Shown here: one piece after another, positions 1-49,384 of the stretch | How the letters are laid out: each line of letters begins with the position of its first letter | How positions within the stretch are numbered: the stretch's first letter is position 1 | Assembly (NCBI GenBank): GCA_937900945.1 | Contig: CALCGG010000138.1 | Span: 1 to 49,968, forward strand | Direction: 5' to 3' | Length of the DNA stretch: 49,968 bases | DNA from: an uncultured Sulfurimonas sp. | GTDB lineage: Bacteria > Campylobacterota > Campylobacteria > Campylobacterales > Sulfurimonadaceae | Program-made: the position numbers and the translations under genes | Notes under the pieces: model-generated | What the model was told of the DNA's origin: nothing | Database searches by the model: none | The model's input: the letters and a program-made list of their open reading frames with translations, nothing else

Positions 1-333
1 TTTCATACTTCGTACAATTTTTTCAAGCTCTCTGGTCTCAAAACCCTCTTCAATGATTACGCTACATGTAAGGTACTTAGGCTGCGCACCCATCATAGCC
101 AAGTCGTTACATGTACCGCAAACTGCAAGCTTTCCAATGTCCGCACCGGGGAAAAACAGAGGCGAAACCGTAAAACTGTCAGTAGAAAATGCTAACGCAC
201 CATCATGGATAATAGCCGCATCTTCACTTTTTTCTAAAATCTCATTTTTAAAGGCTTTGTAAAATACCTTAGAGATAAGTTCGTTATTTTCTTCTCCGCC
301 GTTTCCACATGCCAAGCTTATTGTTTTGTTCAT
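1..333 (-). CDS. hypE: HypE, hydrogenase maturation protein (N-terminal part, cut by window edge)
   Basis: The first 111 codons of HypE, which dehydrates the carbamoyl group that HypF loads on its C-terminal cysteine into the cyanide ligand of the [NiFe] active site. Visible are the N-terminal GNGG segment, the IIHDGALAFSTDSFTVSPLFF-like core of the AIRS/PurM nucleotide-binding fold and AVCGTCNDLAMMGA, all typical of HypE. The catalytic C-terminal cysteine lies outside the window. The ATG overlaps the hypD stop codon in an ATGA, so the two are translationally coupled and belong to the permease-hypBCDE operon. hypA is not in the window and may lie beyond the left edge. Confidence 0.93.
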   Translation of the reverse strand, partial: MNKTISLACGNGGEENNELISKVFYKAFKNEILEKSEDAAIIHDGALAFSTDSFTVSPLFFPGADIGKLAVCGTCNDLAMMGAQPKYLTCSVIIEEGFETRELEKIVRSMK

Positions 334-1472
334 ATCAAATTCCCATACTTATAATAAGCCGCACATGCACCTTCACTGCTTACCATGCAACTTCCAATAG
401 GGGAAGTCGGTTTACATGCAGTTCCAAAGATAGTGCACTCTGGCGGATTTGCCATGCCTCTTAGTATATCTCCACAGATGCAGAGTTTATGGTCTTCTAT
501 CTCTTGAAGCGGTAAGACATCTTTGTAAATCACTTCTGCGTCGTACTTTTTAAATTCTGCTTTGAGTTTGAATCCGCTTTTTGGGATATTTCCTAAGCCT
601 CTCCATTTAAAGAGATCTGCTTTTTCAAAGTACTTATTTATCAACTCTTGTGCCTTAATATTTCCATCGTAAGTTACAAGCCGTTTGTACTCTACTTCAA
701 GCTCACATCTGCCCTCTATAAACTGTTTTACTACCATGCTAATCGCCTGCATGACATCCACAGGTTCAAATCCTGCGACAACTACTGGACGATTATAGTC
801 TCGTGGAAACTCTTCATAAATTTTACTTCCGCTTATCACGCTTACATGTGATGGTCCTAGAAATGCATCTATTTTGTTATTGTAACTGTCTACATGTACA
901 TCTCTAGAATCTATAAGCTCTTTCATAACTTCTGGAACCGTTACATGGTTTATGTGAAAGAAAATGTTTTTGATATCTTGTTTTATGACTGCATGTAAAA
1001 GTGCCGCGGTCATTGGCGTAGTCGTCTCAAAACCGATGGCAAAAAATATAATTTTTTTAGTTGGGTTCTCTTTTGCAATCTTTAGACATTCAAGAGGAGA
1101 GTACACAAAACGCACGTCTGCTCCTTTGCTTCTTGCATTTTGAAGACTTCCGTGACTTCCGGGAACTTTTATCATATCGCCTAAAGTTACCAAAATCACA
1201 TTCTCTTGCATGCTTAAAACATAAGCATGGTCAATTCTCTCTTTTGGCATGATACATACAGGACAGCCCGGACCATGTATAAACTTGATGTTTGCAGGCA
1301 GAAGTTGAGGAAGACCATATTTCATAATAGTATGCGTATGTCCGCCGCACACCTCCATAATGTTTATGGCATGTGGAAGCTTTAACGCATCTTCTTTTAT
1401 GATTTTTGCAAATGCTTTGATGGTGTCTGCGTCTCGAAAATCATCATAAAGATTTTTAAGTTCTAAACCCAT
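330..1472 (-). CDS. hypD: HypD, Fe-S hydrogenase maturation protein
   Basis: HypD is the scaffold that, with HypC and HypE, assembles the Fe(CN)2CO unit of [NiFe] hydrogenases. From the chosen start the protein is 380 residues, the usual size. It has the conserved CGGHTH motif (Cys42, His45, His47), GPGCPVC (Cys70, Cys73) and the C-terminal cysteine cluster CICGDILRG...GTACKPTSPIGSCMVSSEGACAAY that holds the [4Fe-4S] cluster. The reading frame is open further upstream inside hypC, but the ATG at 1472 is preceded by AGAGG at a good distance and starts at MGLELKNLYDDF like other HypD proteins. It begins 1 nt after the hypC stop codon and overlaps hypE by 4 bp. Confidence 0.95.
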   Translation of the reverse strand: MGLELKNLYDDFRDADTIKAFAKIIKEDALKLPHAINIMEVCGGHTHTIMKYGLPQLLPANIKFIHGPGCPVCIMPKERIDHAYVLSMQENVILVTLGDMIKVPGSHGSLQNARSKGADVRFVYSPLECLKIAKENPTKKIIFFAIGFETTTPMTAALLHAVIKQDIKNIFFHINHVTVPEVMKELIDSRDVHVDSYNNKIDAFLGPSHVSVISGSKIYEEFPRDYNRPVVVAGFEPVDVMQAISMVVKQFIEGRCELEVEYKRLVTYDGNIKAQELINKYFEKADLFKWRGLGNIPKSGFKLKAEFKKYDAEVIYKDVLPLQEIEDHKLCICGDILRGMANPPECTIFGTACKPTSPIGSCMVSSEGACAAYYKYGNLI

Positions 1473-26962: not shown

Positions 26963-27743
26963 CCAAACTCCTTGTTATTTTGTAGAGTTGGTGATAGTCG
27001 TGGGCAGAAACTTGATGAGGACGAATCGTTAATGTAAAGTTTAGCTCAACAAAAGCCTCTTGAAGTAAAGTTTTTTCATATACTACTGCTAAATTTTTCA
27101 TAAGAGTTTTCCGAGGTTGCTTAAATGCAACTCTAAGCATATCCTCAAAATTTTCATCGCTTCTATCAGCATTTTTTTGTATCAAAAAAACAGCAGAATC
27201 TATTTTTGGCTGTGGTTCAAATGCAGTTGGGGGAACTCTCACTATTATGTGAGCATTCCCTATACTTTGAGTTATGACACTCAAAGAACCAAATACTTTC
27301 TCACCCTCGTTCGCACAAAATTTTTCTGCTACTTCAAGTTGTACCATTACAAGTATATTTTTACACATTGGATCTGCGAGTGCTTTTAGGATGATATTTG
27401 TTGCTATATAATATGGCAAATTCGCCACTAAATCATACGGCTCATCAACTAGGCTACTCTGCCAAGCTTGTAGAACATCCCCACAATTCATGTGGAGTCG
27501 CTTGGTAGCAATCTCTTCTTTAAATGTACTTTGTAACAGTTTACATAAATCGGTATCTACCTCAAAAGCTTCTACGCTTTTGACATCAACTAAAAATTTA
27601 GTTAAATCACCTAAGCCAGGCCCAATTTCTACTAACTTATTGTTATTATGGGGCATCGCTTCGACGATTTTTCTTAAGACTGTTTCATCTTTTAAGAAAT
27701 TTTGTCCAAATTTCTTCTTAGCTACAACGCTATTTCTATTCAT
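26928..27743 (-). CDS. rsmA: 16S rRNA dimethyladenosine transferase RsmA/KsgA
   Basis: 271 residues. It dimethylates the two adjacent adenines near the 3' end of 16S rRNA during small-subunit assembly. The N terminus AKKKFGQNFLKDETVLRKIV, the SAM motif VEIGPGLGDLTKFL and the catalytic NLPYYIATNIILKAL are all present, as is the C-terminal helical domain with RPHQVSAHDYHQLYK. The final 10-12 residues are hydrophilic and encoded within the overlap with the RNase J gene; the two are translationally linked. Confidence 0.96.
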   Translation of the reverse strand: MNRNSVVAKKKFGQNFLKDETVLRKIVEAMPHNNNKLVEIGPGLGDLTKFLVDVKSVEAFEVDTDLCKLLQSTFKEEIATKRLHMNCGDVLQAWQSSLVDEPYDLVANLPYYIATNIILKALADPMCKNILVMVQLEVAEKFCANEGEKVFGSLSVITQSIGNAHIIVRVPPTAFEPQPKIDSAVFLIQKNADRSDENFEDMLRVAFKQPRKTLMKNLAVVYEKTLLQEAFVELNFTLTIRPHQVSAHDYHQLYKITRSLDGRRESGNTNS

Positions 27744-27831: not shown

Positions 27832-27847
27832 TGTTTCATGTGAAACA
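27832..27847. other. parS-like centromere site 1
   Basis: TGTTTCATGTGAAACA differs from the widely conserved parS core TGTTTCACGTGAAACA at one position. It lies in the gap between divergent rsmA and hisF. Its reverse complement is identical to the site at 31227. ParB binding is inferred from the sequence and from the proximity to dnaA. Confidence 0.7.
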
Positions 27848-28691: not shown

Positions 28692-29233
28692 TGATAATCT
28701 GTGCTGGAAATAACGAAACATTCGATTTTGCGCAACCTATGGGAATAGGGCTTATTGAAACTGCAATGAACTTAACAAGACTTTGTTTGTTTGATAAACC
28801 TGAATTTTTACTTTTTGTAGGTTCAGCCGGTAGCTATGGAAATCATAAAATATTTGATATTATTGAATCAAAAACAGCTTCGAATATTGAACTTTCTTTT
28901 TTAAACGGTGACGCATACACACCATTAGATAATGTAATTTCTACTAACACAACTAACAAAAAAGAGACTATAGTAAATTCCTCTAACTACATTTCAACGA
29001 ATCAGGAGTTGTCAGAAAAGTTCTTAAATCTAGGCATTGGGATAGAGAATATGGAGTTTTTTTCTGTATTGAAAGTAGCTCAGGAATTTAATATTCCAGC
29101 TGGCGGAGTTTTTTGTATAACAAACTATACTAACAAAAATGCTCACGAAGATTTTTTAAAGAATCATGAAAAAGCAAAAGAGCTCTTAAGCGTACATGTG
29201 AAAACTAGAATCAAGGAACTTACCACAAGATGA
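28691..29233 (+). CDS. Short nucleoside phosphorylase-like protein
   Basis: 180 residues, related to the PNP/MTA nucleosidase superfamily: FVGSAGSYG fits the phosphate/ribose-binding glycine segment, IENMEFFSVLKVAQEFNIPAGGVFCITNY fits the family ENME/MEG ribose-binding strand with the following F-VAxxxGIP-----ITD. The Asp of the usual D-N or D-A base-binding end appears as Asn (TNYTN). It is about 50 residues shorter than typical members, so substrate and even activity are uncertain. Its ATG overlaps hisF by one base and its stop overlaps rlmN by 4 bp. Confidence 0.7.
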   Translation: MIICAGNNETFDFAQPMGIGLIETAMNLTRLCLFDKPEFLLFVGSAGSYGNHKIFDIIESKTASNIELSFLNGDAYTPLDNVISTNTTNKKETIVNSSNYISTNQELSEKFLNLGIGIENMEFFSVLKVAQEFNIPAGGVFCITNYTNKNAHEDFLKNHEKAKELLSVHVKTRIKELTTR

Positions 29234-30306
29234 ATGAACCAAAGCCTTCACTACTTGACTTCACACAAACAGAATTACTAACACTGATAAAACCTAGTTT
29301 TAGAGCAAAACAGATTTATGGTTGGCTATATCACCAATACGTAGAAAGCTATGAAGATATGAAAAATATTCCAAAAGCTCTCAAAGAAGAATTAGCCCAA
29401 AAGTATATTGTCAATCCTATGAAAATAGTTAAAAAAGAGATTTCAACTGATGGAACTATAAAGTATCTTTTTGAACTTCAAGACGGAAAAACAATTGAAG
29501 CCGTTTGGCTCAAGATGAAAAATGAAGAAATTGATTGTGATGGAAATATAGTTCATGAAGCAAAATATACTATTTGTGTTTCAACACAAGTTGGATGCAA
29601 AGTAGGGTGCTCATTTTGTTTAACTGCCAAAGGTGGCTTTACAAGAGACTTAACCGCTGGAGAAATAGTGGCTCAAGTAGTAAATCTAAAAAGAGATAAT
29701 GAGCACAAACACAACAGAATGATAAACATAGTTTATATGGGTATGGGTGAACCGCTTGACAATCTAAACAATCTTGCAAAAGCAATAGAGATATTTAAAG
29801 AAGAAGAGGGGCTTTGTATAAGTGGCAAGCGTCAAACAGTATCTACAAGCGGATTAAGCAACAAGATAGACAGACTGGGAGAGATGGACTTAGGTGTTCA
29901 TATTGCCATCTCTCTCCACGCTGTTGATGATGAACTTAGAACTGAACTTATTCCAATGAATAAAGCACATAACATCTCATCAATTATAGAAGCTGTAAAA
30001 CGCTTTCCGATTGACACTAGAAAACGAGTTATGTTTGAGTATCTTGTTATAAAAAATAAAAATGATGATATCGCCTCTGCTAAAAAGCTAGTGAAGCTTT
30101 TAACAGGTATTAAAGCAAAAGTAAATCTTATCTATTTTAATCCGTATCCAGGAACAACCTATGATAGACCAACCAGGGCTGATATGGTAGCTTTCCAAGA
30201 ATATTTGGTTAATCATGGTTTGTTATGTACAATACGCGATTCAAAGGGCATAGACATTAGTGCTGCATGTGGACAATTAAAAGAACAGACTGAGAGGGAA
30301 TTATAA
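29230..30306 (+). CDS. rlmN: Dual-specificity 23S rRNA/tRNA m2A methyltransferase RlmN
   Basis: 358 residues. It is a radical SAM enzyme methylating C2 of A2503 in 23S rRNA and A37 of some tRNAs. The radical SAM motif is CKVGCSFC, preceded by ICVSTQVG; YMGMGEPLDNLNNLAKAI, TVSTSGLSNKI and the catalytic Cys near the end (DISAACGQL) are present. ATGA overlap with the preceding gene and a 1-base overlap with the following peptide gene show tight coupling. Confidence 0.96.
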   Translation: MNEPKPSLLDFTQTELLTLIKPSFRAKQIYGWLYHQYVESYEDMKNIPKALKEELAQKYIVNPMKIVKKEISTDGTIKYLFELQDGKTIEAVWLKMKNEEIDCDGNIVHEAKYTICVSTQVGCKVGCSFCLTAKGGFTRDLTAGEIVAQVVNLKRDNEHKHNRMINIVYMGMGEPLDNLNNLAKAIEIFKEEEGLCISGKRQTVSTSGLSNKIDRLGEMDLGVHIAISLHAVDDELRTELIPMNKAHNISSIIEAVKRFPIDTRKRVMFEYLVIKNKNDDIASAKKLVKLLTGIKAKVNLIYFNPYPGTTYDRPTRADMVAFQEYLVNHGLLCTIRDSKGIDISAACGQLKEQTEREL

Positions 30307-30439: not shown

Positions 30440-30483
30440 AGTCAAAAAAAGCTAAACGACCAACACACCAGGGAGGTCGTTTA
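30440..30483 (-). terminator. Minus-strand intrinsic terminator
   Basis: TAAACGACC and GGTCGTTTA form a 9-bp stem with a 13-nt loop; read on the minus strand it is followed by AGC and seven T. No annotated minus-strand gene ends within 500 bp, the nearest being the pseudouridine synthase at 31013. Confidence 0.55.
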
Positions 30484-30744
30484 TGCATGTAATAATACCT
30501 TAGTTTTCTTATATAAAAATAACAAAACTTCTCAAAAATTATTTCACAAGAAAATCATTCAATAAAAATAAAAGATTCTTTTCTTATCAAAAAAAATTAC
30601 AAATTTAGCCAAAGTGTGTAGTATTCACACATTGTGATAAGCTGTGAATAACATTGCACTACATAAAGGTAAATTTGAATATTCTTTTCTTTATTAAGAA
30701 TTATTTTATATAAATTTGGCATAAAAAATATTATCATTTATTTT

Positions 30745-30766: not shown

Positions 30767-30929
30767 CTTATAGATAGATTATTAGCTTAGATTATTTTAA
30801 TTGTCATCATAAGTAATTTAAATAAAAAGTTATTCACAGTAAAATATTATGAAGAGTTCAAAACAACGGCTAAATAATAAAGCATAAATATCTTGCATGT
30901 GAAAAAAAGTTTTTCACATATACTATTGG

Positions 30930-30969
30930 AATTTCTATAAATGTTTCATATGAAACATTTATAGAAATT
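30930..30969. repeat. Perfect 40-bp palindrome with parS-like core
   Basis: Each base from 30930 to 30949 pairs with 30969 to 30950 without mismatch or loop. The central 16 bp, TGTTTCATATGAAACA (30942-30957), differ from the parS core at two positions. It lies 44 nt beyond the stop of the minus-strand pseudouridine synthase gene. It may be a ParB site, a transcription stop, or both. Confidence 0.75.
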
Positions 30970-31012: not shown

Positions 31013-31921
31013 TTAATACATGCTTTCAAAACAAATTTTCTCAAAATCAATTTTACTTTTTATATGATACTTTTCATTATAAAGTTCAAACTCTAATTCA
31101 TTTGCATGAAGCAACAATCTCTTTGCACCACTTAGTTCTATTCTTATTTTATCATCCAACTCTCTGTCTAAAAATCTGATAATGTTTTCTTCACTCTGTC
31201 CATAAATAGGATCGCCTACTATTGGATGTTTCACATGAAACAAATGAACCCTAATTTGATGTTGTCTTCCTGTGTATGGAGAGCACTCTACTAAAGTCAT
31301 ATCCACCTCTGGAAAATACTTTAAAGGTTTAAAATCTGTTTTAGATGCTTTACCGGTTTCATGAACTTTTACAACCATCCTGACAATAGCACTATCATCT
31401 TGTGCTCTTAGAAGTGGAGCTTCAACACACATGTTCTTTTTAAACTCTCCGTGGACCAGTGCTAGATATTTCTTTTTCATATCCCGTTCTTGAAACATCA
31501 TCTTGATATCTCGTTCACTTTCTTTATTTCTAGCACATAAAACCAACCCGCTTGTCTCTTGATCAATCCTATGAGCTATGTTGGCATCTCTTCCAAACTG
31601 ATATCTTAGTTCATCTATAAGAGAGTAGGGAGTATTTCTATTTTGTGGGTGGATAAGAACTCCGCTTGGTTTATCAAATAAAACGAATTCATCATATACG
31701 GCAGTTGGAACTAAACCTTTTGTAATCGGTTTAAAATAGATAAATTCAAACTCACCCTCTATTTCACCGGCAGTTCTTGTCATAGCAACTCCATCAACAA
31801 AAAGCCTCCCTTTAGCTATAAGCCTTTGAGCTTCTTTTTGAGTATAATCCAATTCTTTTATGAGATACAAAAAAGCTTTCTGCTTTTTCTCAGCATACAT
31901 TTTCTTTAAAACAAATGGCAA
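31013..31921 (-). CDS. RluA-family pseudouridine synthase
   Basis: 302 residues. An N-terminal S4-like RNA-binding domain (about 10-70; KEAQRLIAKGRLFVDGV) is followed by the catalytic domain with ANIAHRIDQETSGLVLCARN, in which the Asp is the nucleophile, and YTGRQHQIRVHLFHVKHPIVGDPIYG. It modifies U to pseudouridine in 23S rRNA or tRNA; which position cannot be told from sequence. The parS-like site 3 lies within codons for FHVKH. Monocistronic, transcribed away from purB. Confidence 0.9.
   Translation of the reverse strand: MPFVLKKMYAEKKQKAFLYLIKELDYTQKEAQRLIAKGRLFVDGVAMTRTAGEIEGEFEFIYFKPITKGLVPTAVYDEFVLFDKPSGVLIHPQNRNTPYSLIDELRYQFGRDANIAHRIDQETSGLVLCARNKESERDIKMMFQERDMKKKYLALVHGEFKKNMCVEAPLLRAQDDSAIVRMVVKVHETGKASKTDFKPLKYFPEVDMTLVECSPYTGRQHQIRVHLFHVKHPIVGDPIYGQSEENIIRFLDRELDDKIRIELSGAKRLLLHANELEFELYNEKYHIKSKIDFEKICFESMY
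31227..31242. other. parS-like centromere site 3 (inside coding sequence)
   Basis: TGTTTCACATGAAACA, the exact reverse complement of the site at 27832, within the pseudouridine synthase gene. It differs from the general parS core at one position. Confidence 0.65.
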
Positions 31922-49289: not shown

Positions 49290-49384
49290 AATAATTCCTT
49301 TGCATGTATAACTAAATATAATTTTCAGCTAGATTTTATCTAACTAATTATAAACAGAACATTAAAGCTTTAATGTTTAGATGA

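Follow-up and report, generated by a model that had tools for sequence, protein, structure and literature searches.

The 40-bp palindrome at positions 30930-30969 of the window, by which we mean the whole 49,968-nucleotide stretch of DNA from an uncultured Sulfurimonas sp. analysed here, is an ordinary parS site that bears a mutational signature in its arms. Its centre, TGTTTCATATGAAACA, qualifies as a genuine parS on account of its sequence, its copy number and its location, and because such sites recur in relatives and the genome encodes parAB. On balance, we favour a reading in which this chromosomal core was joined by its 12-bp arms in a separate, lineage-specific and probably neutral template-switch mutation.

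A cluster of three parS sites near dnaA

The 16-bp core departs from TGTTTCACGTGAAACA by two changes, which keeps it in the range of a parS (Table 1). Exact matches to TGTTTCANNTGAAACA occur at only three positions in the entire 2.35-Mb genome (27832, 30942 and 31227; 99.95% complete, in a draft assembly of 244 contigs). These three exact sites span 3.4 kb at a distance of 6-10 kb from dnaA, with no zero-mismatch match elsewhere in the genome; those at 27832 and 31227 come in addition to the one in the preliminary description. The parA-parB pair is encoded by adjacent ORFs on a different contig from the window (18-866 and 866-1648 of L001), and the ParB scores 176 bits against TIGR00180, its best PDB match being H. 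pylori ParB (4umk, E 2e-69).

Table 1. Features of the palindrome and its surroundings (window coordinates)
Feature	Sequence	Position	Strand	Remark
parS site A	TGTTTCATGTGAAACA	27832..27847	.	divergent ksgA(-)/hisF(+) gap; same position in most Sulfurimonas loci
rlmN		29230..30306	+	TIGR00048; flanks the palindrome gap on the left
Left palindrome arm	AATTTCTATAAA	30930..30941	.	no match in any relative (135-genome genus search)
parS core (site B)	TGTTTCATATGAAACA	30942..30957	.	two central changes from TGTTTCACGTGAAACA
Right palindrome arm	TTTATAGAAATT	30958..30969	.	exact reverse complement of left arm
RluA-family pseudouridine synthase gene		31013..31921	-	TIGR00005 best hit, below its cut-off; right neighbour
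parS site C	TGTTTCACATGAAACA	31227..31242	.	inside the RluA-family pseudouridine synthase gene
dnaA		37682..39010	+	TIGR00362; marks chromosomal origin region

This arrangement is reminiscent of the chromosomal parS of ParABS systems (Spo0J/ParB family) such as that of H. pylori, with which it shares the 16-bp inverted repeat TGTTTCAYRTGAAACA, a small number of copies close to dnaA and an encoded parA-parB pair. In contrast to the H. pylori-type site and its central CACGTG, the window core contains CATATG, and the perfect 12-bp arms beyond the 16-bp core are a property of the window site, not of H. pylori-type parS.

Across the genus, exact sites of the TGTTTCAYRTGAAACA type were present in 122 of 135 genomes, while a reversed-pattern control yielded zero matches in all 135. 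In the named Sulfurimonas loci, parS is found at three places, namely the divergent ksgA-hisF gap (A), the gap between rlmN and the pseudouridine synthase gene (B) and the interior of the latter gene (C); C is occupied in nearly all loci that extend that far, A in the majority and B in a minority. Site C is thus a coding parS. Its placement is constant across nearly all Sulfurimonas loci and is shared by Sulfurovum loci, so that the centromere probably constrains the protein sequence at this point. The preliminary description had proposed a ParB site, and for the 16-bp core this reading is borne out by the three clustered sites near dnaA, the encoded ParAB and the recurrence across the genus; binding of ParB at the core is predicted from its sequence.

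A perfect palindrome between convergent genes

The palindrome consists of AATTTCTATAAATGTTTCAT and ATGAAACATTTATAGAAATT, 20 + 20 bp that pair with zero mismatches and without a loop. As previously described, and at correct coordinates, it comprises a 16-bp parS-like core (30942-30957) extended by 12 bp on either side. No other perfect loopless palindrome in the window is as long, the runner-up measuring 20 bp (at 49358). Assuming a match probability of about 0.29 per pair from local composition, we estimate the chance of a perfect 20-bp arm at about 2e-11 per position, and that of a 12-bp extension, given the core, at about 4e-7. Just to the left lies a second short hairpin, ATGTGAAAAAAAGTTTTTCACAT (30897-30919), built from inverted TTTTTCACA boxes.

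Since rlmN (+) and the pseudouridine synthase gene (-) converge on this gap, the palindrome might represent a bidirectional transcription terminator with parS embedded in it, all the more as it is located 44-83 bp past the pseudouridine synthase stop and its predicted RNA forms an 18-pair stem. However, neither strand shows a T-run or U-tract after the stem, which is itself 85% A+T and 15% G+C, and the palindrome went unflagged by a terminator scan; it thus lacks the combination of G+C-rich stem and U-tract that defines an intrinsic (rho-independent) terminator. Moreover, comparable long palindromes (L057, L132) reside in the divergent ksgA-hisF gap, where no terminator would be expected. The missing U-tract and these two palindromes between divergent genes disfavour termination, also offered as an option in the preliminary description, and we consider it very improbable.

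Similarly improbable are arms created by assembly or amplification as a fold-back chimera. The window does stem from a 244-contig draft, and some contigs of other draft genomes end at parS dyads (the end of C1 and the start of C29 in G067, represented by L212 and L213, and the start of C157 in G031, L214). Yet a read is longer than 40 bp, features of this class recur in independent drafts, and a similar 36-bp parS palindrome (17-bp arms, 2-bp centre) is present at site A of G052, a genome assembled into a single 2.49-Mb contig, which renders an assembly artefact unlikely in general. Contig ends at parS were also considered as a sign of longer palindromes, an idea we rejected as the dyads there measure only 22-28 bp.

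Other identities fared no better. The exact 40-mer was absent from viral contigs, no plasmid matched the palindrome gap, and Rfam gave no match at the gathering threshold; sub-threshold Rfam miRNA matches to the palindrome were dismissed as chance hairpin matches.

Further elements in the same gap

The gap between rlmN and the pseudouridine synthase gene also harbours a separate hairpin, AAACGACC-AACACACCAGGGA-GGTCGTTT (30445-30522, core about 30454-30480), with invariant loop residues and a covarying stem: five of the seven counted pairs change on both sides, and the covariation score was reached by none of 500 shuffles. It is found in most Sulfurimonas genomes and in some other genera of the family, with one copy per genome among the Sulfurimonadaceae matches listed, and has no match in Rfam. 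An undescribed structured RNA element is its likeliest reading. In genus g22, only the hairpin turned up, at a distance of about 300 kb from dnaA, so the hairpin and parS can be uncoupled. In many loci of the genus, the hairpin is followed, at near-constant spacing, by TATTCACA boxes, which resemble DnaA boxes and are possibly candidate DnaA-binding sites, judging from their sequence; in the window, they form an inverted pair about 21 bp apart (30622-30650), with a third box at 30830-30840.

The inverted TATTCACA pair, an AT-rich block and the raw GC-skew minimum at 27741 lend the gap an origin-like appearance. We nevertheless set this replication-origin reading aside as the main account: in g22, parS lies about 16 kb from dnaA and the gap hairpin at the far greater distance given above, and no switch in third-position skew is seen at the gap. 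In published work, oriC is located at dnaA, and the extra 'oriC3' of S. denitrificans is not bound by DnaA (PMC5043019). The raw cumulative skew minimum is positioned about 90 bp from site A and coincides with a switch in gene direction; a minimum similarly near this site was observed in three further genomes (G009, G047 and G011).

Arm lengths and conservation

When the whole gap was compared with the 135 genus genomes, the palindrome had no reported match beyond this genome, the sole one being the window's own fold-back. We surveyed arms at 296 distinct parS sites from Campylobacterota, 99 of them intergenic and 184 coding, with sites counted as intergenic if no ORF of at least 100 aa spanned them, that is, by ORF length and not by annotation. 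Arms of at least 10 bp were seen at five of the 99 intergenic sites (0.04 expected) and arms of at least 12 bp at three (0.012 expected), where the expectation derives from re-pairing left and right flanks over the 99 sites and is only a guide, given that the sites are mostly from draft genomes and phylogenetically related; the loci had been chosen around parS or rlmN. None of the 184 coding sites had arms of 10 bp or more, which may reflect nothing but coding constraint.

The five long arms (L057, 19 bp; the window, 12; L162, 12; L132, 10; L321, 10) stop abruptly and are unrelated in sequence, each differing from the others. The distribution among intergenic sites is gapped: 91 of the 99 have arms of at most 4 bp, none falls at 5-6 bp, and the remainder range from 7 to 19 bp. 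Sites A and C, in the same genome as the window palindrome, are devoid of long arms. Four species of one related genus retain 7-8-bp arms over about 15% divergence, and these overlie the ends of two convergent genes. In G043, the closest relative of G052, the arms of the latter are missing along with about 80 bp around them; this indel is unpolarised, a deletion being equally possible.

Is the symmetry itself under selection? An extended dyad could make a better ParB-loading site, or a cruciform could aid ParB, SMC or topoisomerase at the centromere. Consistent with this are the surplus of long, perfectly symmetric dyads among intergenic parS sites, the stable hairpin predicted for the 40-mer (-14.3 kcal/mol as DNA, -18.8 as RNA; equalled by no shuffle) and the arms retained in the four related species. 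Selected arms are nonetheless at odds with the short arms of most intergenic sites, the unrelated sequences of the long ones and the neighbours A and C, and work on H. pylori ParB-parS employed a 24-bp duplex carrying the 16-bp parS (PMC11229316). We hence deem selection rather unlikely. The preliminary description had thought it likely unless arms proved unconserved where the core is, and this is what the 135-genome search and the unrelated arms of the other long-armed sites revealed. Intergenic palindromes in general over-extend as well: those with 7-bp arms outside parS reached at least 14 bp in 4 of 160 cases, against 7 of 91 for parS, a parS-specific excess that is not significant (p=0.10), so that arms are probably not peculiar to parS.

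Discussion

How might an ordinary parS acquire such arms? In the canonical part of our model, dimeric ParB would bind the parS core, load as a CTP clamp and spread, ParA would move the origin region to the daughter cells, and site B would act together with its neighbours at 27832 and 31227. As the core is all that ParB requires, the arms are probably neutral or close to it. They probably arose by template switching: during replication, a nascent strand at parS would fold into a hairpin at the 16-bp dyad, copy a few bases of its own flank and then rejoin the template, generating a longer perfect palindrome in a single step. Template switching at quasipalindromes renders inverted repeats more perfect in E. 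coli (PMC7202029) and can generate perfect stems in a single event (PMC8794818). The window palindrome shares with these Ripley/Lovett products its perfect, abruptly ending arms, a sequence specific to the lineage and an origin in a short dyad. Unlike them, it would have a conserved protein-binding site as its seed, and neither its ancestral form nor the copying event has been observed; the single-arm state that should precede copying was found in no close relative, and we infer that step.

The gapped arm lengths, abrupt ends and unrelated sequences fit one-step copying better than gradual selection. Against template switching count the possible deletion in G043, the 7-8-bp arms kept in the related genus and the p value of 0.10 obtained with other intergenic palindromes. 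More tentatively, parS in Campylobacterota might repeatedly gain long, unrelated perfect dyads, be it as a hotspot of template switching or because symmetry beyond 16 bp is favoured for ParB loading.

The data place the Sulfurimonas centromere cluster, of which we found no description in the literature searched, near dnaA and, in this genome, between ksgA and purB, where it comprises three parS sites. They further illustrate that selection need not lie behind long perfect symmetry around a conserved protein site, as the core may be kept while arms arise lineage by lineage. If parS truly is a template-switch hotspot, this would link the evolution of centromere sequences to replication stalling.
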